Assembly (NCBI RefSeq): GCF_029867415.1
Contig: NW_026706165.1
Span: 62,001-126,000, forward strand
Source of the DNA: Vicia villosa
Lineage: Eukaryota; Streptophyta; Magnoliopsida; Fabales; Fabaceae
Length of the DNA: 64,000 nucleotides
Direction of reading: 5' to 3'
Part shown: in pieces, positions 2,561 to 54,100 of the stretch
How the letters are laid out: the number at the start of each line of letters is the position of its first letter
Position numbering within the stretch: the stretch's first letter is position 1
Made by a program: the position numbers and the translations under genes
The notes under the pieces: model-generated
Databases searched by the model: none
Told to the model about the DNA's origin: nothing
The model's input: the letters and a program-made list of their open reading frames with translations, nothing else

Positions 2561-4254
2561 TTTCCATCATTTTATATAAGTTAAATAGTCGTAACTTGGT
2601 CGTACACATTGTCTCAAACATCGTGTCCAACATATGTTCCCAAGAACAGAATTTTGCTAATTCTCTTTTATGCACTAGGAGGTGTTGGAACGGTGAAACC
2701 ACTCAAAACTTACTTTTTTATAGTGTTAAGTTTGGCATGGAGTGGTACAATCTTGAGAATTGGTTGAACAATATCTGCAAGCTATTTGGATGACTTGCGT
2801 GTTTGTATTATGACAAGAACGCAACAATCATCTTTTTTGGTCTTAAAAAATCATTAATATTTTGTATTATTGATGTGTAAATATTTAGAATTGGTGGTCG
2901 ATTAAATCATGCTACAAAAAATTACAGATTTGACTTTAATTAGATGTGGGTTAATTCACTTTGTTGTCTTGGGTGTTCAATCATGAGAAATGGTTAGTTT
3001 TGGATTATTAGCCCTTGTGGCTTTCTTTTAGTTATATTTTGACATTTTTTGCTTTTTTAATGGCGAAAAAATTCAATCATAGAAGGAGTTTGAGCTCTTT
3101 GAAGACACTCTTAGAAACCATTTACAAGGAAAAATATTATATTCTTTCATCTCTTTCATAATTGTTGACGAACCAAAACAACAGCTTATCATTACAAATA
3201 GACCAAATGGTCCAAACCACAATATTACCAAATCATTCCAAAATCTCAACTACTCTTAAACTTAGATCCTAAAGATATAAGACACTAAAGAATAATCATA
3301 TTCTCCCTAGGAAGAACCACACCTAAAAACCCAACCACATAAAAATCCAATACAACGTTGCGGAAGCTAAGCTACATGTAATAAAGATATGACATGTAAA
3401 CTCGAGAAAATCAATACATAACTTACAGGAAAAATCATATGGGCTAACAATAAATTTACGCTTGAATAGATTCTCTATAGATAGTAATTAATCCCATAGG
3501 AGTTTCCAAGAGAAGACGACAACCTTAGAAGGAAGCCAACTAACCTAAATACAAGGTTGCAATATGAGATATCCCTACTACAGATAATGTTGTTTGACGA
3601 TGCAATATTTTTCTAATTCTCTTTTATGCGTTAAGACGTGTCAAAACGGTGAAAAAGTTATCTTGGATGAGTTATGCCCGAGTTTTATGACAAGAATGCA
3701 ACAATTATCTTTTTTTTTTCACAAGTAATCATCAATAGTTTGTATAATATCAATGTTGTAAAAATTTAGATTTGGTGGTCGATTAAATTAAGGTACAAAA
3801 GTTTACAAATTTGAATTGAATTAGTAGGGGAATAATTCACTTTGTTGTTTTGGGTGTTCAATCATGAGAGAATGCTTGTTTTTGGTTTGTTAGCCCTTGT
3901 GGCTTTCTTTTTTGTTATGTTTTGACATTTTTCGATATTTTTTTGGCAAAAAAATACTCGGTCATATAAGGAGTTTAAGTTCTTTGAAGACCCTCTTAGA
4001 AACCACTTATAAGGAATAAAAATACTCTTTTCTTCAATCTCTTTCACATTTGTTGATGAACCAAAGCAATAGCTTATCATTATGAACCCGCCAAATGGTC
4101 CAAACCACAACATTGCCAAATCAATGCAAAATCTCACCAACTCTTAAACTTAGATACTAAAGATATAAAACACTAAAAAATAATCATATGCTCCCTTGGA
4201 AGCACGATACCTAAAAACACAATCACATAAAAATCCAATACCATATTATGGAAG

Positions 4255-6263
<2,009 letters not shown>

Positions 6264-38132: not shown

Positions 38133-39398
38133 TTGTATGATTTTAAGAACATCTAAAATTTAGAGCTTTGAGTTTGAGTTCTTGAATACAAAGAATACAT
38201 GCCATTTAGACAAATTTATGAATAATAAAAATAAAACATCATGTTTAATTTTATTCAACACAATAATCATATCACTTTGTAGGGGTGGCAAAACGGGCCG
38301 CCCGCCCCGCCCGCCGCTCGCCCCGACTTATGCCTGCCAAAAAACAAGCGGGGCGGGCATGTCCGCCAAGTAAAATGGGCATAAAAATCATTCCGCCCTG
38401 CCAAGATGGCAGGTTGGCGGGCGGCGGACTTACCCGCCTATTCTTATTTATATATTTTTTTAATAGATTAATAGTCTTTTTTTACCTTTTAATTAAACTT
38501 TTCACTTATTTTTTAAAACATTTTTTTATAAAAGCGACTTTTTAACAAATTTACTTAAAAAAATATTACATGTATTTATAAATAAATGTATAAAATAAAC
38601 CATCAAGAATTACAATTACTAGAATTAACTAAAAAAATAGTGAATTTTGGAGGAGGGGCGGACTTTGGCGGGCGACGGGCTTTGACGGGGCAGGTATGGC
38701 GGGCTTTGGCGGGGCGGGCTTTGTATGATTTTAGGAACATCTAAAATTTAGAGCTTTGAGTTCTTGAATACAAAGAATACATGCCATTTAGACAAATTTA
38801 TGAATAATAAAAATAAAACATCATGTTTATTTTATTCAACACAATAATCATATCACTTTGTAGGGGTAGCAAAACGGGCCGCCCGCCCCGCCCGCAGCTC
38901 ACCCCGCCTTATGCCCGCCAAAAAACGAGCGGGGCGGACATGCCGGCCAAGTAAAATGGGCATAAAAATCATGTCCGCCCCGCCAAGATGGCGGGTTGGC
39001 GGGCGGCGGGCTTACCCGCCTATTTTTATTTATATATTTTTTAATAGATTAATAGTCTTTTTTTACCTTTTAATTAAACTTTTCACTTATTTTTTAAAAC
39101 AATTTTTTATAAAAGCAACTTTTTAACAAATTTACTTAAAAAAATATTACATGTATTTATAAATAAATGTATAAAATAAACCATCAAGAATTACAATTAC
39201 TAGAATTAACTAAAAAAATAGTGAGTTTTGGAGGAGGGGCGGACTTTGGCGGGCGGCGGGCTTTGACGGGGCAGGTATGGCGGGCGGCGGGCTTTGGCGA
39301 GCGGCGAGTCTAAAATCCCAACCCAACACGCCATTTTTTGGCGGGTGCGCGGACTGGCCCGGCGGGCCACGGCCCGTTTTGCCACCCCTATCACTTTG
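38133..39398. mobile_element. hAT-type MITE with partial tandem duplication
   Basis: The complete copy is 38871-39390. It begins TAGGGGTAGCAAAACGGGCC, ends GGCCCGTTTTGCCACCCCTA, and is flanked by the 8-bp duplication TCACTTTG (38863-38870 and 39391-39398). A second left part (38280 to about 38723) precedes it together with the same ~145 bp of left flank, giving a ~591-bp tandem duplication (38133 and 38724 start alike: ttgtatgatttta). The interior is G+C-rich at the ends (gggcggcggg words). The short open frames here are by-products. Confidence 0.85.
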
Positions 39399-40303: not shown

Positions 40304-41276
40304 CATTGTAAAACTTAATATATATGATGACATATCTAATACTATACATTCGTATAAAAAATTCATCATTAGATCGAAAAATATTACCATAAAGATCACG
40401 TCCATAAAATTCAACATCAATTAAAAATTATTTGATATATTAAAAAGGTGAACTAAAATTAACCGTTATGAAAAAAATTTGTATATTAATTTTTATGCAT
40501 CTCATTAAATAATTTCCAAATAATGTTAAAGTTTATATTCATAAAATCTATAATCTATATAATAGTAGCTTTCAGTTTTATTATAAATATATATTGCGTG
40601 TAGGAAATTTAGCTTTAAGAGTAGAAGTTCATTGTTGTTCATATAATAACATGTCAGATCATAATTTCATAAAACCTACTTCATATTTGGAATTTTTTTT
40701 TTGAATAACAAGTTTTTTAAAAAAAATTTCAGAAATAACCAACTTTTCAAAAAAATTCCCCAAATGTCACTTTTTTACTACCTGCACCACGTTGTCGCCA
40801 GGGGGGGTGGCGACAACACTAAGCCCAGAACGTCATCGCCAGTGGGCCTGGCGCCTACATGCAAATTTTAGATGTTGTCGCCACCCCCCTGGCGACAACA
40901 CCCCCCCATATTTTTTTTTTCTTTTTTTTTGTTATTTTTTTTCTTTAACATATTTCCCTCTAAATTTTTTATATTATATTTTTCAAATATTCTTTCAACA
41001 TTCAACATGATTTTTTTATGTAAATTTTTTTTTCATGGTATTATATTTTCGGTAATTTTTTACTTTCAACATTAATGTTTTCGGTAATATTTTCTCTTTA
41101 TTGTTTGTAAATATTATTGGTTCCAAATATTTTTTCCATGGTAATATTTTCTTTCAATATGTATCATGAATTCATTATTTTTTTGGTAATTTTTTTTGTG
41201 TTGTAACCCATAAAATTTATAAAAAAAAGTTCATTTCATTGAAAAAGTAAATTACAAATATCATCGAAACTAAAAA

Positions 41277-43682
41277 CTATGTTGTGGAGCTAGATCCACG
41301 ATTGGGACATTTGGTCCTATTATGTCCGACCTCACGACATATACTACACTTCCTCTGCATTTTTTCAGTTACGTCCATCTCGGTTATAATACGCCTGCTG
41401 TTTGGTCGACCGCTTTTATTCCGACGCATTAAATCGTTATGCCAAACTGTTTCCCCCTCGTACACAGGCCAATATGCCTCCATTGCTACCACCGGAAAGT
41501 AATTGTCGTATACGTTGAGCAACGTTGATACTTTATAAATTTCTGATACCAAAGATAATGCATCAAAGTGAGTATGTGAACATGCTGCAAGGACATGGGA
41601 GCAAGGCATGCGATATGCTTGAAATTGGCCACAGTCGCACCAACGACCTGGGATATTGACGCGATACTCTTGTCGTGGAAGCCCCTGGTTATGGTCAATT
41701 GTTTCTTTGACACTGAAGGTGTGGCCATGACGGTCGAACTCGGTCACTCGATGAGTGTTACCCTTGGCAGATTCCTGTTGTATATATTTCATGCAGACAT
41801 CGCTATATACCTGTTGTGTTTGTAACACTGAATTCCACCTCTTACCTCGTGTGGCGAGCAAAGTTGCCATCCGAAAATACGTAGCACTAACAATGGCAGT
41901 TACAGGTAGGCTTCGTATGCCTTTGAAAACCCCGTTCATTGATTCCACAAGATTTGTAGTCATGTGGCCCCACCTAGCCCCATCGTCGTATGACCTAGTC
42001 CATCTTGCTCTATCAATGCTGTCAATCCACCTCCCTGCATCTGGATTTGTCAACGCTATTTCTCGGCGGTAGTATTGAAATCCAGGTTGGTTTAAGGCAT
42101 ACCCCGCGTTCACCAAGTGGTTCTTCAAAAATTTATCCTTGATCTCTCTCATAAAATTCTGTGCTATATGCCTAATACAGTAGACATGCTTAGAGGGAGG
42201 GTTGTGCCAACCATTTGCCGGATTGTTGTATGCGCTGTCAATAGAAGCGTGCCTGTCAGAAATCAAACAAAGATTAGGTTGTGGAGCGACTCTAGCTCGG
42301 AGATTCTTCAGAAAGAAACCCCAAGCAGCAGTTGTTTCTCCTTCTACCAAAGCAAAGGCTATTGGAAAAATGTTGCTATTTCCATCCTGCGCGACCGCCA
42401 TCAACAAAGTTCCCTTGTATTTCCAATACAGCCACGTTCCATCAATTTGAATAATCGGCTTGCAAAAACCAAAACCGACGATGCATGGTCGAAACGCCCA
42501 GAATAGTCTATGGAAGATTCCATTACCTTCGAGAGGGGTTCCGTCCTGGGACTGTGCCGGCAGTGTCTCCAATATACTAACAGTCCCAAGTGAATACAAT
42601 TGCAGTGCAGCCAGGTAGCGAGGAAGTTGTTGGTACGATTCCTCCCAGTTGCCGTAGACTTTTTCAATTGCTTTCTGTTTCGCCAACCAAGCCTTTCTGT
42701 ACGAAGGTCTGTATTTGAACACAGAAACGCAATGAGAAATAATTGTCTTCACCTTCAGGGATGGGTCAGTTTCGACCAGAGGAATGATGGTATGACATAT
42801 CATGTCATGACTGAGTTTTCGATGATCTTGCGCCATGTTAGTGGTGACGCAGGTGTGGGCTTGAGATATCGAACGTATCACCCACGCGTTAAACTTCTTT
42901 CTGAATGATGCCTTCAGCATGTATCCACACTCCGGGTTTTTGCATGCAATACTGACTCTCTCTGGATTTGATCGATCGGCTTTAAAATCAACACAATTTG
43001 CTAAGTGCCAATTTTTTATAGCCAACAGACAATCATCCTTCGAACGAAACGTGTCACCCTCTTTTAACTCCTCGCTTGACCTCATATATGGATTGTAGAA
43101 CATATCGGACGATGGCTCGTCCTCTCCTAAATTAAGCGTTGTGAAATGTGCCGGAGGTGAATATGCATGTGTATCTGGTACTGGATCCGGTACTGGAACT
43201 TCTTCGTCACCTTCATCTTCGGATTCACGATTCACCAACTCATCAACAACATCTTCTATATCAGTTTCTTTGTCAATGACATGTTCGGGTTGTTGTTCGT
43301 CATCAACAACAGGATCAATAACTTGTGACTGAATATTTTGCGAAGGAGCATTTTGTTCAACCACTATGTACAGTTCCAGATAATCATAACCAAAATACTC
43401 ATGGGTGAGGAACATGTTTTGGACCTCTAAGTCAGTTGTTATCTGTGATTGACAAAACATGACTGAGTTGTTAGGTTGAAGAAGGGGTTGTCGGTAAAAT
43501 ATCTGAGACACTGGTTCTCTTATTTTGGATTTGATTTTCCTTTTTAGATAGGAGAAATCTGATTGTCTATTTAGAGCAAAACGTGTTGAGTTTGTGTTTC
43601 TAAATAGAAAACCGTTTGTGTCGCAGTGGTATGTCTCACCATTCATATGAACACGAACCTTGTACTGCGAGGTGGATGCCAT
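41277..43682 (-). CDS. MULE (mudrA-type) transposase, 801 aa
   Basis: One uninterrupted exon, ATG at 43682, TATA-like tatatagg about 110 bases upstream. Residues 1-110 form an N-terminal domain; 110-200 is an acidic linker. About 205-280 is the Mutator DNA-binding region (GDTFRSKDDCLLAIKNWH). 405-600 is the catalytic core with a plausible DDE triad D414 (IDGTW), D476 (ISDRH) and E580 (NLVESMN) plus the CIRHIAQN motif. A SWIM zinc finger is at C682/C684/C694/H696 and a CCHC knuckle at C779/C782/H787/C792. It cuts and joins the element ends in the nucleus. All key residues are present and length is normal, so it looks functional. Plus-strand open frames over this region are shadows. Confidence 0.95.
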   Translation of the reverse strand: MASTSQYKVRVHMNGETYHCDTNGFLFRNTNSTRFALNRQSDFSYLKRKIKSKIREPVSQIFYRQPLLQPNNSVMFCQSQITTDLEVQNMFLTHEYFGYDYLELYIVVEQNAPSQNIQSQVIDPVVDDEQQPEHVIDKETDIEDVVDELVNRESEDEGDEEVPVPDPVPDTHAYSPPAHFTTLNLGEDEPSSDMFYNPYMRSSEELKEGDTFRSKDDCLLAIKNWHLANCVDFKADRSNPERVSIACKNPECGYMLKASFRKKFNAWVIRSISQAHTCVTTNMAQDHRKLSHDMICHTIIPLVETDPSLKVKTIISHCVSVFKYRPSYRKAWLAKQKAIEKVYGNWEESYQQLPRYLAALQLYSLGTVSILETLPAQSQDGTPLEGNGIFHRLFWAFRPCIVGFGFCKPIIQIDGTWLYWKYKGTLLMAVAQDGNSNIFPIAFALVEGETTAAWGFFLKNLRARVAPQPNLCLISDRHASIDSAYNNPANGWHNPPSKHVYCIRHIAQNFMREIKDKFLKNHLVNAGYALNQPGFQYYRREIALTNPDAGRWIDSIDRARWTRSYDDGARWGHMTTNLVESMNGVFKGIRSLPVTAIVSATYFRMATLLATRGKRWNSVLQTQQVYSDVCMKYIQQESAKGNTHRVTEFDRHGHTFSVKETIDHNQGLPRQEYRVNIPGRWCDCGQFQAYRMPCSHVLAACSHTHFDALSLVSEIYKVSTLLNVYDNYFPVVAMEAYWPVYEGETVWHNDLMRRNKSGRPNSRRIITEMDVTEKMQRKCSICREVGHNRTKCPNRGSSSTT

Positions 43683-44259
43683 AATTTTGATATGTGTTTG
43701 TGAAAGAAGAAATGTGAGAATTGTGTTGTAAAAGGAAGAAATGTTTGGGAGAATTGTGTTGGTTGTAAAAAATAGTATGTGAAGTAGTTCCTATATATCA
43801 TGCACCACCTCTTACACAAGGGTAATGCATGCAAGAAATGAAGCAATAATTCTGCACAAGATAGTAACTTTGACAAGACTAATGCATGCCACAAAAGAAT
43901 CTCGTCCCCACCTCTTACACAAAGGTAATGCATGCAAGAAATGAAGCAATAATTCTGCACAAGATTGTAACTTTGACAAGACTATTGCATGCCACAAAAG
44001 ATAGGGTTGCATGCATGAAGATAGGGGGGATCGTTGCAGGAATCTATCAGGAATCGCTTCAGGAATCATTACAGGCGCATGCTAGGGTACAGGAACTCGT
44101 TTCGGACGCATGCGAAGGACAGAAAACAGATGGGGACCATGTGGGGCCCTAATTTTTATTCTTCAAAATTATTGTTTATGTTTTTCCCTTGTATATGAAA
44201 CCCTAATTGTCCCTCTATAAATTAGGGTTTCCTGTGTGCATCAGTACACACACGAAAAA
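43683..44259. promoter_or_regulatory. Divergent promoter region with ~104-bp tandem repeats
   Basis: Between the leftward transposase and the first rightward gene, a unit starting cctcttacacaa and containing taatgcatgcaagaaatgaa and ctaatgcatgccacaaaag occurs twice (about 43807 and 43911). Related units lie at 45437-45626. TATA-like boxes face both ways (tatatagg near 43792-43799 on minus, tataaatt 44216-44223 on plus). The repeated gcatgc words are candidate protein-binding sites. Confidence 0.55.
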
Positions 44260-44628
44260 ATGAGATCTCGAATACGGCCAGATAGCACGCACCAGACTAC
44301 TGAGCCTCCACCACCTGTAAGGCGTTTGGACTATCAACCTCCCCTTGTTCGAAGGAACGGATACGTTATTTTCTCTGTCGTCAAACCTCCCATGCAGGTA
44401 ATGTTTTGGAACATTCAATCCATGGACCAGCTTAAGAGAACCCTTCTCAGGTTTTTGGAGGGAGAGTGGAGTCCAGGCGAACAAATCAGATCTATCAAGA
44501 GACTTAGAACAAGGGGAGGTGTTTTTCTTGAAAGACAGCGTTGGTGGGAGACGATGGAGGACGACATTCAATGCACTCGAATGATGGAGGACAGAGAAGA
44601 CATTGTCCTAACCGTTGTAATATCCTAG
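44260..44628 (+). CDS. MULE-encoded small protein, 122 aa, transposase N-domain-like
   Basis: ATG 44260 follows a TATA box (44216-44223). The first 30 residues are Pro/Arg-rich (TEPPPPVRRLDYQPPLVRR). The rest has alternating hydrophobic segments GYVIFSVVKPP, MQVMFWN, MDQLKRTLLRFLEGEW, IRSIKRLRTRGG, WWETMEDDIQCTRMM and DIVLTVVIS. It matches the neighbouring 107-aa protein in layout: W96/D102/M108 here align with W72/D78/M84 there. More weakly it matches the N-terminal domain of the transposase. No catalytic motif or membrane segment is seen. It may be a DNA- or protein-binding accessory factor of the element; this is inference. It could also be a non-functional leftover, but the frame is open and promoter-equipped. 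Confidence 0.6.
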   Translation: MRSRIRPDSTHQTTEPPPPVRRLDYQPPLVRRNGYVIFSVVKPPMQVMFWNIQSMDQLKRTLLRFLEGEWSPGEQIRSIKRLRTRGGVFLERQRWWETMEDDIQCTRMMEDREDIVLTVVIS

Positions 44629-44857
44629 ATGTTGCAGTTTCTTTATCATTTCAGCTACTTCTGTACCGTCCAATTAAATGCTCTGAGCATATATTAATGA
44701 AATGTTTTTCTAACATTACAAAGTTTCCAATTAGTATTTAAGTTATTAATAATTATCAAAATTACTTTCCTCTGTATTTCACCCACTATAAATAAAGGTG
44801 TGTGTGTGTGGAGTTGAAGTACCAACTCTTTCTTCATTCTTACTACAAACACTAAAA
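44629..44857. promoter_or_regulatory. Spacer and TATA box of the 107-aa gene
   Basis: Contains TATAAATA at 44787-44794 after ttcacccac and a short (gt)n run, 64 bases before the ATG at 44858. Presumably it also holds the 3' end of the 122-aa gene. The gcatgc repeat module of the other two promoters is absent. Confidence 0.5.
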
Positions 44858-45181
44858 ATGAACTCAGTTTGGGTTGTCGTCTTTTTTGAGGAAGGTAGTC
44901 ACATGCGTGTCTGCCTTAACCCCCATTGGAATTTCCAGAGAATTGTTAGAGCCATCAACACTGGGTTTCGTCAACTAGATGGTCCGACCAGAAAAGTTAA
45001 ACAGATAGATTACCGTTGTCCATACATTACGTTGACGGATAATAATCCAGAAGGCACCTACATGTATTATTGGGACCGTGTGAAAGACGATGTGGACGTG
45101 GATCTAATGTTTTGGACACACAGTGGAGAGGTTAACCGAGGCGTTGAAAATCCACTTGTTTTTGCAGTGATACTCGAGTAG
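44858..45181 (+). CDS. MULE-encoded small protein, 107 aa, stand-alone transposase N-domain homologue
   Basis: I chose ATG 44858 because it is the first ATG after the TATA box at 44787-44794 and starts a conserved-looking MNSVWVVVFFEEG. Three blocks match the transposase N-terminus with identical spacing inside each block. F26/I29/R31/I33/R38 align with F43/L46/R48/I50/R55. V47/Q49/I50/Y52/R53/P55 align with V58/Q60/I61/Y63/R64/P66. D78/V81/M84/F85/T87/H88 align with D84/V87/M90/F91/T93/H94. Both end in a hydrophobic strand and VxxE. The protein thus looks like the transposase N-terminal domain without the rest. Its role is unknown: possibly a partner, regulator or competitor of the transposase. 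The frame is intact. Confidence 0.7.
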   Translation: MNSVWVVVFFEEGSHMRVCLNPHWNFQRIVRAINTGFRQLDGPTRKVKQIDYRCPYITLTDNNPEGTYMYYWDRVKDDVDVDLMFWTHSGEVNRGVENPLVFAVILE

Positions 45182-46064
45182 TTTAGGTTAAGTGTTGTTG
45201 TGTTTGTTGCAATGATCGAGCGTGTACTACAAGTTGTTATGTGTTATTTTCTTAGATGTTTTAGTTTCTGTGTTGGTTATTGTCAATGTACCTTTTTAAT
45301 TAGTGAATGAATTAATGTTTTCCATAATATATATATATGCGCTAGTTTAATATAAAATCCTCAAAATCTATTATAATTATATGTTTTAAATGAATTAAAA
45401 ATTATGATAAATCACTGCACGCAATAATTTAACATAAACATGACAAGACGAGACTAATGCATGTCACAAAAGATTCTCGTCCCCACCTCTTACACAAGGC
45501 TAATGCATGCAAGAAATGAAGCAAAAATTCTGCACAAGATTCAAATATGTCATGACTAATGCATGTCACAAAAGATTCTCGACCCCACCTCTTACACAAG
45601 GCTAATGCACAAGAAATGAAGCAATAAGTATATGTGTTAAATGAATTAAAATAAAAATAAAAACATCTAAATAAAAAATAAAAGTTATGATAAATCGGTG
45701 CATGCAATGGTATAACATAATTTAGCATGACAAGAATGCATGCCTCTATAGCAATCTAGTCCCCCCACCACAGACATGACAAGACAAGACACTGCAGGGA
45801 ATCTCGTCCCCACCACAGATATGACGAGACAAGACACTGCAGGGAATCTCGTCCCCACCACAGACATGACGAGACAAGACACTGCAGGGAATCTCGTCCC
45901 CACCACGGACATGACGAGACAAGACACTGCAGGGAATCTCGTAATAACCTATGCATTTTGGCTATAAATATGTTCCCAAACTTGTTCATTTTCTTCATCA
46001 CCTCTTATACTTTCATCAGAGCAACTTATCATCAGAGCAACTTTGTGTTTCATCATCAACAAAC
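45182..46064. promoter_or_regulatory. Upstream region of the plant-mobile-domain gene, with tandem repeats
   Basis: Holds two to three copies of the gcatgc module (45437-45626), then four copies of a 45-bp unit (agatatgacgagacaagaca..., about 45771-45945), then TATAAATA (45963-45970) about 100 bases before the ATG. A small duplication (atcagagcaactt) lies in the leader at about 46015-46042. Because 45 is divisible by three the unit reads open on both strands; it is not a gene. Confidence 0.6.
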
Positions 46065-48483
46065 ATGTCTCTCCTAACTATGGGTCAAGAGCATCGAGGA
46101 ACCATTGCAAACATTGCTGATTTTGTAAGTTTGAGTAAACACTTAATTTTTTTTCACCTTAAATTTACTAATTTCAAATACTTATGGGTAATGTTTTTTT
46201 TATAGGATATCACGAGATTTAGGACCCGTGCTGGACCGATGAATGCTCCTGACCCTTTGATTGAGGACTACGTCAAACGTGCGGGATTTGGTGAGGTAAT
46301 GAACTTAACAGAAAGCAAAGTTGATATGAAGTTTATATTAGCATTGTGTGAGCGTTGGAGGCCTGAGACCCATACTTTTCACCTTCCAATGGGTGAATGT
46401 ACCGTCACTCTAGAGGACGTGTACATGTTATTGGGTCTCAAAACAAATGGAAAGGCAATGTATGGAAATGTCCAACAACCAAACGCTCTATGCGTCGAAT
46501 TGTTGGGTGTGGATTTAATAGAGGGTGAGGGGCGACAAAGGGGTAGGGGACAAGGTATAAAGCTTGCTGGCCTTCAACTAGCTTATGATAACCTTAAATT
46601 GAATGAGTTTTCTGACGAAGAAAGTATCCTACAGAAAACTAGGATGTATATTATGTTATTGTTTGGTAAGTTTTTATTTCCCGAAGGCACGGGAAATAGT
46701 GTTAATTTTATGTACTTGTGTTTACTTGGGGACATTGATGCAATAAAGACATATAGTTGGGGTTCAGCTGTGTTAGCATACCTCTATAGTTCCTTGTGCA
46801 AATGTGCAAAAAAGAATAGTTGTACATTTAGTGGATGTGCATTCTTGCTACAAGCATGGGCATGGTGGAGAATGCCGGTATTGGCCCCTGCAAATCCACA
46901 CAGTTTCGCCTTCCCTTACGCTTCAAGGTAACTTTTGGATCTTATTTTAATTACTGCTTTTTATTCTATTATTATTTGTAACTATATTGATTTATATCTT
47001 TTAATGTGTTTAGGTTCAATGCAATCGGAATGGATTACACCAATACGCCTTTATCCAAAATCATTTTCTACCGCCAAGTATTAGATCGACTTGGACCCCA
47101 AGATGTAAGACCACTAAAAATTTCCATTTTCTAAATATATTTATAAAATTTACTATCTTCTATATTTTGAAATTAATATTATTTGCTTTGCAGTTTATTT
47201 GGAGACCTTACTTGGAATTGGATCACGTACCCGACCTTGACGAGGCGGCTATTTGGACAACAAAATCACCCATCATACGGTTCACCACTGTGGAGATGCA
47301 CCAAAGTGACCGTGTGAAGCTCCAATTCGGCATGCATCAAGGTATCCCTAACCCACCTGAACCTGACTGTTTGGGACGTTGGCATCTGGCGAAGGTTAGC
47401 GAACAGTGGTACGTAGAAAATTACAAGACGTTTGCTATAGATCAGCGTAAAATATGGGCTCGTCGTTCCAAATATGTTCTAGAATTTCCTGTGGCGCCGC
47501 AAGAAATGAAGCCAACTGTTGAATATGTCAACTGGTACAGATCGGTCACAAATCCTGAAATGATTGTGTCTGCCCCTTTCTATTTAGCTGACCCGCGAGC
47601 ACAGCCTCCATATTTTGGAGGACAACAACAACCACCGCCAAATTACCACCACCAACAACAACAACCACCACCACCAAATTACCAACAACAACAACAACCA
47701 CCGCCAAATTACCAACAACAGCATTACCCACGGCAACACCAACAACAACAACAAAGTTACCACCAACAACCAATCCAACCACAAACACCTTTTTACCAAC
47801 AACATTCCCAACAATACCAACAGTTTTTTTCATCCCAACCTCAACCACAAAATCAAGAATTCCATGTAGGGAGCTCTTCCAGATCACATTTCCAAGAATT
47901 CCATGCGGGGAGCTCTTCAAGATCACCACCAATAACCCCCGACATGGGCATAGAAGAAGAATACGTGCAATACACCACATTCGACCAACCAACGCCACAG
48001 TACACCAACCAACCATTTGACCTCAACACACCACCACAACCATTGTATTTTAACCAAACCGGATCCACCACCAACTTCCAAAAATTCCAGGCCGCACCCA
48101 CTAGGAGAAATTTCAACCCGCCTAGACAAAGCTTTGACAGCGCCGCGGGCACCCGCCTATCCTATGGAGGGAATTCTTCTAGAGGTCAAGGACGGCCCAC
48201 AGAGTTTGAAGACCAAAACTTCATTGAGGGGCCGTCGACTCAAGCACAAGACGAACCAAATAGAGGGGGGCGTCGTCGCAGGAATAGGGGGCACTACCAA
48301 CTCGTGACCCGTCTACACGACCTATTAGACAACCTGAATGTGGATCGTACCATGGTCCACGTGGCGCTCAATAGGAATTATGTTTGTATCGTTAATGTAT
48401 TTTGTAATGTTTTTAATTTTAATGTATTTGTATCGTTAATGTATTTTGTAATGTTTTTAATTTTAATGTATTTGTATCGTTAA
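46065..48483 (+). CDS. Plant mobile domain (PMD, MAIN-like) protein carried by the MULE, 720 aa
   Basis: Four exons (46065-46124, 46206-46927, 47014-47104, 47194-48483) join in frame with GT/AG borders. The PMD spans about residues 20-430, with signature CERWRPETHTFHLPMGE, VTLEDVYMLLGL, FIWRPYL and QFGMHQGIP. Residues ~428-600 are Gln/Pro/Asn-rich low complexity, followed by an Arg/Gly-rich patch (NRGGRRRRNRG). PMD proteins include Arabidopsis MAIN/MAIL1, nuclear factors for transposon silencing and meristem integrity; other PMD genes are transposon-borne. The last ~40 residues come from a 44-bp tandem repeat and look degenerate, so the original stop may have been lost. Function within the element is unknown. 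Confidence 0.88.
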
Positions 48484-49213
48484 TGTATCGTTATTGTATT
48501 TTAATATATAATTATTTTTAACGAATGTCCAACTTTCAAAATAATGAATCCACCACCAACTTCCAAAAATAATTTTAAAAAGATAGATAAAAAAAACAAC
48601 ATAAAAAAATTATTGAAAAATTGTAGTTAAAAAAAATACTGTAAAAAATTATATAATAAAAGATTGTTAAAGAAAAAAAAGAAAAAAAATATAGGGGGGG
48701 TGTTGTCGCCAGGGGGGTGGCGACAACACCTAATTTTAAAACGTAGGCGCCAGGCCCACTGGCGAGTATGCATTGGGTTGAGTGTTGTCGCCATCCCCCC
48801 TGGCGACAACGTGGTGTATTTAGTAAAAAAGTGACATTTTGGTAATTTTTTTGAAAACTTGGTTATTTTTGAAATTTTTTTAAAAAAACTTGTTATTCAA
48901 AAAAAAAATCTCATATTTGACATAATTTTAATCCACATTCTTCAACAAGAGGACAAACTTTATTTTAAAAAATGGTGACTAACCACCTAATCTCAACACA
49001 ACTAATCTAAAATAATTTCTTAGCTACATTTCTATTTGCTCGATAAACTACTTAGCATTGTATGAAAAAATAACAATTACCAGATAAATCCTTTTAAAAC
49101 ATATGAAGTTATAAATCATAAACTTAAAAAGTGGTATTGCCACTAAGAATCTATGAGATCGAAAGAGGAACTTTTTGTTTAAAGAAATTTGGCTCTGCTA
49201 GGGTTCAGGGAAT

Positions 49214-51134
49214 ATGACATCAGCATCTCCGGTGGCCAGTCCGGCACCGTTTTCACTTCCTGCGTCAGGGAGGGGGGAGGAAACAAACCGCCTGATAATG
49301 GAGGAGGAGGGAGTAGTATTAGGCGCAGTAGTGAGTCTCAGAAGGTGGGGATAGAGGGAGTCTCTTACAGAAATGTTGTCACGGGAGAGATTGGCGATGA
49401 TGGAGGAGTTAGTGATGGAGGAGGACTGAAGGAGATGGGGCAAGAGGAGCATGAAGATCTCTTTGTGGACACTGAAGGGATCACTGTGAAAGAAGGGAAG
49501 AGAGGAGGATATGATTGTCCTTTGATAATCTTATCCAAATATGAAGAAACGAGAATTCAGAGGCCATGGAGAAGAGGTGTGATTGTTAAGCTCTTGGGGA
49601 GGAGGATTGGGTTTAAGGCTTTGGAGAATAGATTGAAGAAAATGTGGGTGAGGAAAGGGATCATTCGCATTATTGATCTTGGATATGATTATTACTTAGT
49701 TTGCTTCACTCATGATGATGATAAAAACGCAGCGATGATGGATGGACCTTGGTTCATCTATGATCACTATCTTACGGTTAAAGAATGGACTCCAGACTTC
49801 CATCCTGAAAATGATTCAATAGTGAACGTTGCAGTGTGGATAAGAATTTCAGGACTTCCGGTGGAATACTATGACCCAAAGATCTTACAGGTTATAGGGA
49901 ATTTGGTGGGACGAACCATTAAGGTAGACAAGAACACCCTGCAAGGAGAACGTGGCAAATATGCACGAATTTGTGTAGAAGTTGATATCTCAAAACCTCT
50001 TCTTGCAATGTTTGAATTGAAGAACAAGAGCTATAGAGTTGAGTTTGAAAGATTGCATTTGCTGTGCATAACCTGTGGGAAGTTCGGACACTATAAGGAG
50101 GGATGCCCTCAAAAGATGAATCTAGTGAACAATGCTGTGACATCAAATGACCAAGGAGGTATAGTAGATGGGGAGAAGAAGGGGAAGACTAATGTAGCTG
50201 AAGGATTAGGAGCTGGAGATGGCCCTTGGCAGGTGGTCCAGAAACAAAGGCGTCCAAAAAAATCACCGGAGGTTAGAAAAAAACCGACGCCGGCGGGATC
50301 ATGGTTGGCCAAAGCTGGGTCTAGGTTTCACGCGCTTGGTGGTGACGGTGGTGAAACTAGTTTTACCAATAAGGAAACTATTAATGAGGATACAATGGAT
50401 TTGGAAAATGGAGATATGAATAAAGAGGGGGACACGAGTATTAATGTGGAAAATACTATGGAGCAGCAATTTAATACAGCAATGATTGATGATATTGTCA
50501 ATCAAGAAACAATTAATGCCCAGGTGATTTATGTGGATATTAATGTGATAAAGAGTAATGGCAGACAGGAGGAGACAGCTGGCAACGGAGGAGGAACTAT
50601 AGTGGGAATGCATGGAAATAAAGGAAATAATGGTGGGAAAAAAGGGAGTAAGAAAGAGAAGAAAAAAAGTGGAAGAATAGGGAATAAGCTGGCTACACGT
50701 GTAACACTTGGGTTTAAAGAAAAAGCTGAGGGCCCCAGGAAGCGTAATATTGATACCGTGTATGGAAAAAAATTCACTTGGAATCGCATAGCGGGAATCA
50801 CGTGCATATAACCAATAGAAAAGATAATTTAATAGTGCATGAGGAGGGCAAGAATAATACTCAGATGAATTTGCATGAGGAGCACTGTTTGAGACATAGG
50901 GAGGATAGAAAAAGTACGCATGACGAAACCAATGGAGATCATAATAATGAGGCAATCAAAGAGCATGGAGGACATAATGTTAGACCGCCGGATGACATTA
51001 TTGAAGTTGGGGGAGTAGCTAGTATGGGGTCTCCTATCCTGGAAAGAATCAATTCAGCCCAGGAAGTAGAAGATGGCCAAATAGCTGGGCAGGATGTGGA
51101 GGAGGAAGTAGTTCAGGAAACTCTTGAACTATAG
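49214..51134 (+). pseudogene. LINE ORF1 (DUF4283, CCHC zinc knuckle), frameshifted
   Basis: The main frame (49189-50811) contains a DUF4283-like region (GVIVKLLGRRIGFKALENRL, DGPWFIYDHYLTVKEW, IRISGLPVEYYD) and a knuckle CITCGKFGHYKEGC, the nucleic-acid-binding part of plant L1 ORF1 proteins. The likely ATG at 49214 (MTSASPVASPAPFSLP) is in another frame that stops early. The C-terminal tail also jumps frame near 50780 and continues to 51134. So at least two frameshifts have broken it. Confidence 0.85.
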
Positions 51135-51171
51135 TAGGCCTATCTGGTGTGCATTACTTTCTTTTGTGTTA

Positions 51172-54100
51172 ATGATGATTAAAAACACTAAAATAATTTG
51201 GTGGAATTGTAGAGGAGCTGCGAGTAAGCCTGAGATTTACGTATTCATGGAGACTAGGTGTGATCCATTAAAGTTACAAAAGCCCCTGAAGAAATTAGGT
51301 TTCAACCAATTTTTCTCAGTCACTAATGATGGATTTGCGGGTGGAATTTTAGTTGCTTGCAGAGATGAGAATATGAAAGTCTTGTGGTGTGCCCAGGATG
51401 AACAATGGATCCACTTAACAGTGAGGACTGAAGATGGTAGGGATTGGTGCCTGACTTCGGTTTATGCTAGTCCAGCAGAACAGAAAAGAAGAGTGTTATG
51501 GGATTCTATGCGCTCTTTGGCCCAAAGCAATAACCTCCCTTGGATAGTGGCGGGAGATTTCAATGACATTGCTTATGCAAATGAGAAAAAAGGTGGAACT
51601 GTGGCTTCTAATAAGAGATGTACCACGTTTAGAGATAACATGGAGGCTTGTAAGCTGTATGACCTGGGAGCGAGTGGTCCCAAATTTACATGGCGTGGGG
51701 GACTGTATCATGGTGGTCAGCGAATTTATGAGAGGTTGGACAGAGTTATTGGTAATGATGATTGGAAATTATTATTTCCTGACAGTTTTGTGAAGGTTCT
51801 CCCTAGGGTCAACTTTTCAGATCATCATCCTGTTATGCTGAGCTTAAATAGAGAAGGCAAAGATATCAGGAAACGACAATTCAAATTTGAGAGTGCATGG
51901 CTAATGGAAAAGAACTATGTAGATAGAGTGCGTGGAATCTGGAAAGATGGTGAGGCAATTTTGGAAAACCTGAATAGAATTAAAAGCGATGCTACTGATT
52001 GGAAGAATTATAACGTCCATCATGTCCAGAAAACTAAGAAGAGGATTTTGGCTAGGCTGAAAGGTATTCAAGAGAGCATCCATCTTCTCCAGGACACTCG
52101 TGACCTTATCCGGATTGAGAAGAGGCTGCAACAGGATCTTCATAATATCCTAAAACAAGAGGAACTAATGTGGTTCCAACGGTCGAGATCTAAGTGGCTA
52201 ACTGATGGTGATCGGAATACTAGATATTATCACCTCAAAACTATGAACCGGAGAAGGAAAAACAATATTATGATGCTTCAGGATAATGAAGGTAGGTGGG
52301 TTGAAAAGGAAGAAGAGCTAAAGGTGCTAGTTACTGATTACTATAAGGAGCTTTTCAAAATAGGAAGTCTTTGTGGCAATTGGTTTCAATCCAAATACAC
52401 GTATCCATCTCTTATTGAAGATGAGTTAAAGAAGCTTGAAGATATGGTTACTGATACTGAGATTAAGCAAGTTGTTTATGCCATGCAGCCTTGGAAGGCA
52501 CCGGGACCGGACGGATTCCCGGCAGGATTTTACCAAAAATCCTGGAACATTGTTGGGAAGAATGTCTGTGACTTTGTGAAAAAGGTGTGGGAGAAGCCCG
52601 ATACCATTGCTCAAGTGAACCAAACAAACATTTGCTTGATTCCTAAGATTGAGAAACTGGTGTTAGTTTCACAATTTCGTCCAATCTCGCTGTGTAATAA
52701 TTTGTACAAGGTTGTCAGTAAGATTATTGTGAGTAGACTAAAGAAGCACATGGACACTCTCATCTCCCCTTACCAAACAGGTTTTGTTCCAGGCAGAATC
52801 ATTCATGAAAACATTATAATTGCTAGAGAGGCTATGCACTCAATGGAGAGGATGAAAGGAAAAAGAGGATACTTTGCTATAAAGGTAGACCTATCTAAAG
52901 CATATGACAAGCTAAGATGGGAGTTTATCTGGCATATGATGCAAGAAGCTAAGATTCCTGGAAAGCTTTGTAATATTATCATGCATGCCATTACGAGTGT
53001 CTAGACTAACGTGAATTGGCATGGTGCTCAAAATGAATTCTTTCGTCCTCAGAGGGGGATTCGTCAAGGGGATCCTTTGTCCCCATACCTTTTTGTTTTA
53101 TGTATGGACAAGCTGTCGCATCTCATTGAAGAGGAAGTTGAAGCTGGGAGATGGAAAAGTCTAAAGCTTGGCAAGCAAGGAATGAAGATATCGCACTTAA
53201 TGTTTGCAGACGACCTTCTTCTATTTGGTGAGGCAACAGAGCGACAAATTCAGTGTGTCATGCAAACCTTAAACACGTTTTGCAATATGTCGGGGCAAGA
53301 AGTTAGTGAAGCCAAAACAAACATCCTATTCTCGAAGAATGTTTCGCGAAGTGTGCAACAGAAGATTGTTATGGCCTCTAATTTTAGGCATACAAGATCC
53401 TTTGGTAAGTACCTAGGAGTCCCATTGCATGGTAAGAAATTAAAAGCAAAAGATTTTCAATACATTCTAGACCAAATAGCGGGTAAGCTTCTTAGCTGGA
53501 AGAGAGATAATTTATCACTTGCCGGTAGAATCACTCTGGCTAAAAGTGTCATGTAAGCTGTCCCTTTATATCCAATGATGACAAATAGACTTCCTAGAAG
53601 TTGCATTGATGATATTCAAAAATTACAAAGACAGTTTGTATGGGGTGATAGCGAGGATAAAAGGAGAGTTCACGCTGTTGCATGGGATGTGGTAACTACT
53701 TCAAAGAACCATGGAGGTGTGGGCCTGAGGAAGCTAGATACGATTAATGATGTCTGCATGATGAAATTGGGATGGAAACTGTTTACCAATGCTAAAGATT
53801 TGTGGTGTCAAGTTTTACGTAAGAAGTACAACATGTTAGATGATCATGACTGGTCCAAAGTTAAAGCTACTGATTCTAGTCTGTGGAAAGATATTACACG
53901 TACGTTTCCACTTTTGCAAAACTTGGGCAGGTGGATTGTTGGTGATGGAAAACAGATTAGGGCGTGGGAAGACAATTGGTTGGGCAAGGAGTTTTGTTTA
54001 AATAATGATGAGGATGTCCTTATTCCCGAGAACCTTCGAGGAGCCAAAGTGTGTGATCTAGTTAATGATAGAGGAGAATGGAACTTTCCTATCTTGTGTG

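Follow-up and report, generated by a model that had tools for sequence, protein, structure and literature searches.

Organization of a MULE with two small accessory genes

The window analysed here is a 64,000-nucleotide stretch of the Vicia villosa genome, and it contains a MULE in which two small genes, p122 and p107, lie as a cassette between a transposase gene and a plant mobile domain (PMD) gene (Table 1). The element has the transposase domain, long terminal inverted repeats (TIRs) and 9-bp target-site duplication (TSD) of the MULE superfamily. The two TIR arms (40692-40929 and 48673-48909, inverted) are 89% identical over 238 bp, and ungapped arms extend to 305 nt at 80% identity. A second Pfam match of the transposase is to SWIM (PF04434, E 5.2e-6). 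The second part of the PMD gene aligns with positions 275-347 of the PF10536 profile under the Pfam cutoff (E 9.8e-5, 22.1 bits), and the gene has a weak match to DUF1985, also under cutoff (E 0.014). TATAAAT boxes lie ~40 bp 5' of the p122 ATG and ~65 bp 5' of the p107 ATG, and both open reading frames are located where an earlier sequence-only reading had placed them.

Table 1. Features of the MULE, in positions of the window.
Feature	Position	Strand	Remarks
MULE element	40690-48910		order: transposase (-), p122 (+), p107 (+), PMD gene (+)
Target-site duplication TCATATTTG, 9 bp	left 40681..40689, right 48911..48919		copies perfectly identical
Left terminal inverted repeat	40690..40929
Right terminal inverted repeat	48673..48910
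MULE transposase, 801 aa	41277..43682	-	PF10551 E 1.5e-16 (above cutoff)
Transposase N-domain, residues 1-110	43353..43682	-	p107-related; alignment covers columns 31-95
Noncoding tandem repeats, period 103	43805..44001	+	TRF; between transposase and cassette
p122-p107 cassette, apparently imported	44003..45247	+	junctions: left ~43999-44003, right ~45243-45248
TATAAAT box of p122	44216..44222	+	kept in 34/35 aligned cassettes
p122, 122-aa accessory protein	44260..44628	+	PB1-like relation only suggestive
TATAAAT box of p107	44787..44793	+	kept in 35/35 aligned cassettes
p107, 107-aa stand-alone protein	44858..45181	+	PB1-like model
Apparent relic of replaced native gene	45248..45400	+	stop codon 45253-45255, then 3' flank
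45-bp tandem repeat, 4 copies	45763..45942	+	TRF; 5' of PMD gene
PMD gene, N-terminal domain part	46239..46931	+	PF10536 E 3e-48
PMD gene, C-terminal domain part and low-complexity tail	47296..48483	+

Mutually related repeats of ~100 bp with CATGCA motifs flank the cassette on both sides (43805-44001 and 45441-45609). Repeats related to the period-103 array are found in L046 and L047, two copies of a sister subfamily described below; because related arrays both flank the cassette and occur in sister-subfamily copies, the cassette seems to be set inside an older repeat array. Adjoining the MULE, at 49435-53004, are open reading frames that by eye resemble those of a plant LINE (zinc-knuckle protein, endonuclease and reverse transcriptase), and a tandem duplication of ~580 bp (38133-39285, pieces 93-99% identical) lies close to long TA microsatellites at 39.7 and 40.2 kb.

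Relationship of p107 to the transposase N-domain

The sequence-only reading proposed that the element carries two stand-alone copies of the transposase N-domain. This stands for p107, which has a profile match and is constrained (see below), but not for p122, which matches the N-domain no better than shuffled profiles do. The three ordered blocks shared by p107 and transposase residues 43-94 are present as described (FSYLKRKIKSKIR/FQRIVRAINTGFR, VSQIFYRQP/VKQIDYRCP and DLEVQNMFLTH/DVDVDLMFWTH). In an hhalign profile comparison, nine p107-family sequences matched four transposase N-domains with a score of 54.2 (Prob 96, E 2.4e-9), and none of 200 column shuffles reached this score, the best being 18.8. 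A second comparison, with eight and six sequences respectively, gave 54.15 against a shuffle maximum of 17.9, again with 0 of 200 shuffles reaching the real score. P0002 and P0010 were left out of both runs, and P0001 also of the second; P0010 was likewise left out of the p107-family alignment. A tblastn search of one locus of a further family (family C, below) with the p107 relative P0004 matched the transposase N-domain (E 7.9e-6). These computations identify p107 as a stand-alone protein homologous to the N-domain of the MULE transposase.

PB1 is a protein-protein interaction domain; type I PB1 domains have an acidic OPCA motif and type II a basic lysine of strand 1, and PB1 domains pair head-to-tail. 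The structure model of p107 predicts a b-b-a-b-b-a-b ubiquitin-like fold, nearest to PB1, with modest Foldseek TM-scores against PB1 chains (about 0.52) and ubiquitin and SUMO rows close behind. By eye, the conserved D61, D73, D78 and D80 of p107 resemble a diverged OPCA motif. Ten p107-family members gave no Pfam match at E 10, the PB1 profile included, which lowers the claim that p107 belongs to the PB1 family but not the claim about its fold. Compared by sequence with solved structures, p107 had only two rows, both at chance level (E 1.3 and 1.6), and the Pfam matches of other N-domain and p122 relatives are weak and all under cutoff. The suggestion that the small proteins might bind the transposon ends is unsupported, since the p107 model is PB1-like and the sole DNA-binding-domain match of the transposase (DBD_Tnp_Mut, residues 207-263, E 0.0085, 16.2 bits with a cutoff of 25) lies outside the shared domain.

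The common layout of p122 and p107, with a W-x5-D-x5-M pattern, can be seen by eye, but shuffle tests make homology only suggestive: the profile score of p122 against p107 was reached by 15 of 200 shuffles, or by 3 of 200 with more sequences. Against the transposase N-domain, 42 of 200 shuffles were as good or better, and 159 of 200 in a second run with P0011 left out of the p122 set. We rejected p122 as a second N-domain copy, as the profile is unsupportive and the only hint is a weak structure model. Foldseek rows for this low-confidence model, mostly DNA polymerase eta, were also set aside (E 0.33 or worse). Pfam reports no domain in p122, and its identification as a PB1 protein is only suggestive. 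A p122 relative at 53% identity, P0014, represents 18 member sequences from two sources, and thus p122 relatives exist beyond the copies studied here.

Constraint on the cassette genes

The V. villosa assembly (2,034,964,285 bases in 1888 contigs) was searched for further copies. No stop was present in 141 of the best 150 of 585 p107 matches and in 146 of the best 150 of 2244 p122 matches, counts that are biased to intact copies because only the best 150 candidates were scored. Other searches used the N-domain (best 150 of 1338) and P0004 (best 150 of 590).

For p107, pooled pN/pS is 0.051 within family A (28 loci), to which the element in the window belongs, 0.105 within a second family, B (8 loci), and 0.050 between the two. 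The corresponding values for p122 are 0.426, 0.197 and 0.253; the transposase gives 0.406 within A and 0.221 within B, and the PMD gene 0.613 and 0.198. Duplicate loci (one place fetched twice) were left out of these counts. Between A and B the transposase is saturated with synonymous change, and the ratio for that comparison is therefore left unquoted. An earlier between-family count with six B loci gave 0.038 for p107 and 0.270 for p122. Constraint is strongest for p107 among the four genes measured, and the computation shows p107 to be under purifying selection. Between the window and the family B locus L031, p107 has 16 synonymous changes at 67 sites and one nonsynonymous change at 254 (Fisher p 3.9e-11). 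Decay of these frames in other copies would have spoken against the proposed N-domain relationship; for p107, other copies are constrained and not decayed. The frame is also kept in four full-length relatives, P0003-P0006, at 51-64% identity. The p122 homologue of the sister subfamily (p122b) has a pN/pS of 0.76, from four copies with few changes.

Near-identical cassettes in distinct MULE families

Near-identical cassettes are present in distinct MULE families. Six of the first 40 loci belong to family B (L031, L032, L036, L037, L038 and L040). Their p107 is 95-99% and their p122 87-92% identical to those of the window, but most pieces of the transposase are at 58-69%, and the first part of the PMD is at 57-59%. 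Cassette DNA is 88-93% identical between A and B, and the transposase genes ~69%. From the window to the six B copies, dS is 0.015-0.31 for p107 and 0.08-0.31 for p122, and saturated for the transposase; transposase dN between A and B is 0.50 in the N-domain and 0.27 overall, with p107 scarcely changed. The element ends of A and B differ, with the exception of a 44-bp stretch (window 40911-40954, 84% identical to L031), and the flanks of the window cassette have no match in 8 family B loci at E 1e-3. The cassette is inverted relative to transposase and PMD between the two families, being oriented toward the PMD gene in family A and toward the transposase gene in the B loci examined. The 9-bp TSDs of three B elements examined are ACAAAATTA, AAAAATAGT and TTAGGATCT.

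A midpoint-rooted tree of 35 cassettes (28 A and 7 B; L030, a partial cassette match, and duplicate loci were left out) places all 28 A cassettes and the B copy L040 in one group with branch support 1.000, and L036 and the remaining B copies fall outside it. At diagnostic sites L040 has the A state in 36 of 36, and inside the group it joins three A copies with weak support (0.751). As L040 is weakly placed, it may be near the donor, or may be a later recipient of an A cassette. We also considered L036 as a mosaic, but its 22 A-like and 14 B-like sites are intermingled, and a basal lineage fits equally.

Family B loci show some further features. L036 and L038 have tandem arrays of family B's own between p107 and the transposase (3540-4440 and 3573-3805, respectively), which recall the VANC target arrays of VANDALs. 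A suspected further class, with identical 91% p122 matches, proved to be family B (L045). L030 (C7:23401254) is rearranged and has no p122; its p107 follows directly on middle parts of the transposase and is itself followed by the PMD tail.

Apparent replacement of a resident gene in family A

Among the best 150 of 1338 matches to the family A N-domain, 102 lie within 5 kb of a listed p122 or p107 that runs on the opposite strand, and none lies that close to one on the same strand; 101 of the 128 best-scoring matches are linked to a cassette in this way, compared with 1 of the 22 lowest. We fetched eight (L046-L053) of the 21 lower-scoring copies without a listed cassette, and refer to these as subfamily A'. 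In all eight, the stretch from transposase to PMD yielded no p107. Five of them, the fetched copies being the only ones counted, have an open p122 homologue, p122b, that is 55-59% identical to p122, and in the other three this stretch has neither gene.

Relative to L047, the window is native to about position 44001 and again from about 45248, with B-type DNA between. Window positions 45245-45377 are 81% identical to L047, in an alignment that spans both sides of the p122b stop codon of L047; the bases up to and including the stop codon at 45253-45255 look like the very end of the old p122b gene, with its 3' flank surviving after it. On these alignments, a two-gene B-type cassette seems to have taken the place of a single p122-type gene native to family A. 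We take family A to be the recipient mainly because of the sister subfamily and the relic; it is possible that the donor was an unsampled third family.

A different pattern is seen among the better-matching A copies for which no cassette is listed, 27 in number. All four of those fetched (L054-L057) have internal deletions that cut into p122 and take out p107. Given these copies and the eight of subfamily A', p107 seems not to be needed in cis. In the database protein P0010, the 5' leader and first ~35 residues of p107 are joined to the PMD tail, a fusion that an internal deletion of such an element would give.

p107 in a third family

The search with P0004 brought up a third family, C, represented by L058 and L060, whose p107 copies are at 88% identity. 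The transposase pieces of this family share 28-62% identity with their A and B counterparts, with saturated synonymous sites. Here p107 is convergent with the transposase gene and sits past its 3' end, and no p122 was found within the 5.7 kb fetched. The p107 frames of the two family C copies are open at a dS of 0.83-0.90 from the window. In L059, a relative of family B with a transposase at 76-80%, p107 is at 83% and p122 is broken. Between family C and L059, p107 has a dS of only 0.15-0.25, and they share a block of 657-727 bp at 83-84% identity. The pattern resembles that of another exchange, one in which p107 was passed on without p122.

Possible roles of the cassette

The explanation that we prefer overall, giving it about an even chance, is that p107 is a portable adaptor and that the family in the window is a cassette-swap chimera. 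The PB1 surface of p107 would dock on the PB1-like transposase N-domain, on p122 or a host PB1 protein, or on more than one of these, and this docking would tune transposase assembly or expression. p107 would be portable because its interface is generic and not tailored to one transposase, and the family A element would be a chimera in which a native p122-type gene was exchanged for the cassette of another family. Strong divergence of the N-domain between A and B (dN 0.50), with p107 barely changed and near-identical across the families, favours a generic adaptor or a common partner and makes a private one-to-one partnership less likely, as does the finding of no p107 between transposase and PMD in 8 of 8 A' copies. 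More broadly, the MULEs of one genome may share a pool of accessory genes, in which a PB1 adaptor gene, akin to the transposase N-domain, moves with its promoter between families that differ in their ends and have divergent transposases, and can replace a resident gene; we would put the chances of this a little short of even.

A near-constant p107 alongside diverging transposase N-domains, and common to several families, would also be expected if the cassette acts on the host, with p107 and/or p122 disrupting a host silencing or PB1-signalling partner in a VANC-like manner and the target being common to the families. Noncoding tandem repeats near the genes, as in the VANC target arrays of VANDALs (PMC5735166), are consistent with this. 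We nonetheless regard it as unlikely, if far from negligible, because p107 is homologous to the transposase N-domain, the likelier-looking partner, and the PMD gene with its weak DUF1985 match is the better VANC-like candidate. The same homology to a single transposase domain, in a stand-alone copy with its own TATA box, could instead describe a dominant-negative brake that caps the N-domain and restricts assembly, in keeping with an earlier titration idea; this is improbable, in that it does not obviously explain the strict retention of p107 or its uptake by other families, and copies without p107 exist.

Two further readings concern the cassette as a unit. Many A copies are nearly identical, some have the cassette deleted, and the sister p122b is little constrained (pN/pS 0.76, 4 copies), all of which would fit a functionless passenger spread by recent amplification. 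For p107 this reading is disfavoured and very improbable, given a pN/pS of about 0.05 between A and B, open frames in two family C copies at the dS noted above, and the retained frames of P0003-P0006. A working unit formed by a p107-p122 heterodimer of acidic and basic partners would account for the opposite net charges (-3 for p107 and +4 for p122) and for the linkage of the genes; among the best 150 of 585 p107 matches, a p122 is listed within 3 kb on the same strand for 94 and on the opposite strand for none. This too is quite improbable, as p122b occurs without p107 in the transposase-PMD stretch of 5 of 8 A' copies and family C p107 occurs without p122 in the 5.7 kb fetched. Each gene is found without the other, and so neither seems dependent on its partner.

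The role of the extra genes of MULEs (mudrB, ORF2 and ORFR) is an open question, and one such gene now has a predicted fold, a counterpart domain within the transposase and a measured constraint above that of the transposase, with which partner tests become direct. The exchange can be traced at near base resolution against an import-free sister subfamily, providing a case of module swapping between DNA transposons, and with so many copies in a cover-crop legume, tests of expression and methylation are feasible. If MULEs do share such a pool of accessory genes, plant DNA transposons would evolve through the exchange of modules, and MULE transposition would have PB1 docking as a layer of control.

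Comparison with known systems

Titles and abstract openings of the open-licence literature yielded no stand-alone PB1 gene and no accessory-gene exchange between MULE families, which is weak evidence for novelty. Extra MULE genes are known, including mudrB, mutB, vanB and vanC (PMC6446971); the legume MULE AutoMuTAnT has one ORF (PMC4486113), and a gene-capture review mentions Ulp1 in MULEs (PMC13317346). Antisense PMD genes occur in many MULE groups, with group 42 given as 'unknown ORF and PMD (antisens)', and the PMD gene of our element is similarly antisense to the transposase; the part of that table covered here lists no PB1 gene (PMC6446971).

A PB1 domain is associated with a MULE-type transposase in the domesticated MUSTANG-B transposases, where it is a 5' exon of the gene (PMC3435246), whereas the PB1-like gene here is separate and within the element. 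Abermu MULEs of barley and other plants have an ORF2 of unknown function and a reverse ORF, ORFR. Like Abermu (8,176 bp, three ORFs), the element in the window is a MULE with extra ORFs and a 9-bp TSD; ORF2 and ORFR are set apart from p107 by description, as the account available does not describe them as PB1 or as transposase-domain copies (PMC9168764).

VANC binds motifs located in tandem repeats (PMC5735166). Like VANDALs with VANC and VANB, our element is a multi-gene MULE with noncoding tandem repeats, and VANC, an anti-silencing protein that removes methylation, has a DUF1985 domain, which only the PMD gene matches here, and weakly. Unlike VANDALs, for which the available part of the same paper describes no PB1 gene (PMC5735166), it has a PB1 cassette in addition to the PMD gene.

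The function of mudrB is unknown, yet it is required for insertion (PMC6446971, PMC9168764). Compared by description only, p107 is unlike mudrB in being homologous to part of the transposase. It is like mudrB of maize MuDR in being a second gene of an autonomous MULE that is transcribed against the transposase gene, and p107 of family C, with its convergent position past the transposase 3' end, can be compared with mudrB in the same way.
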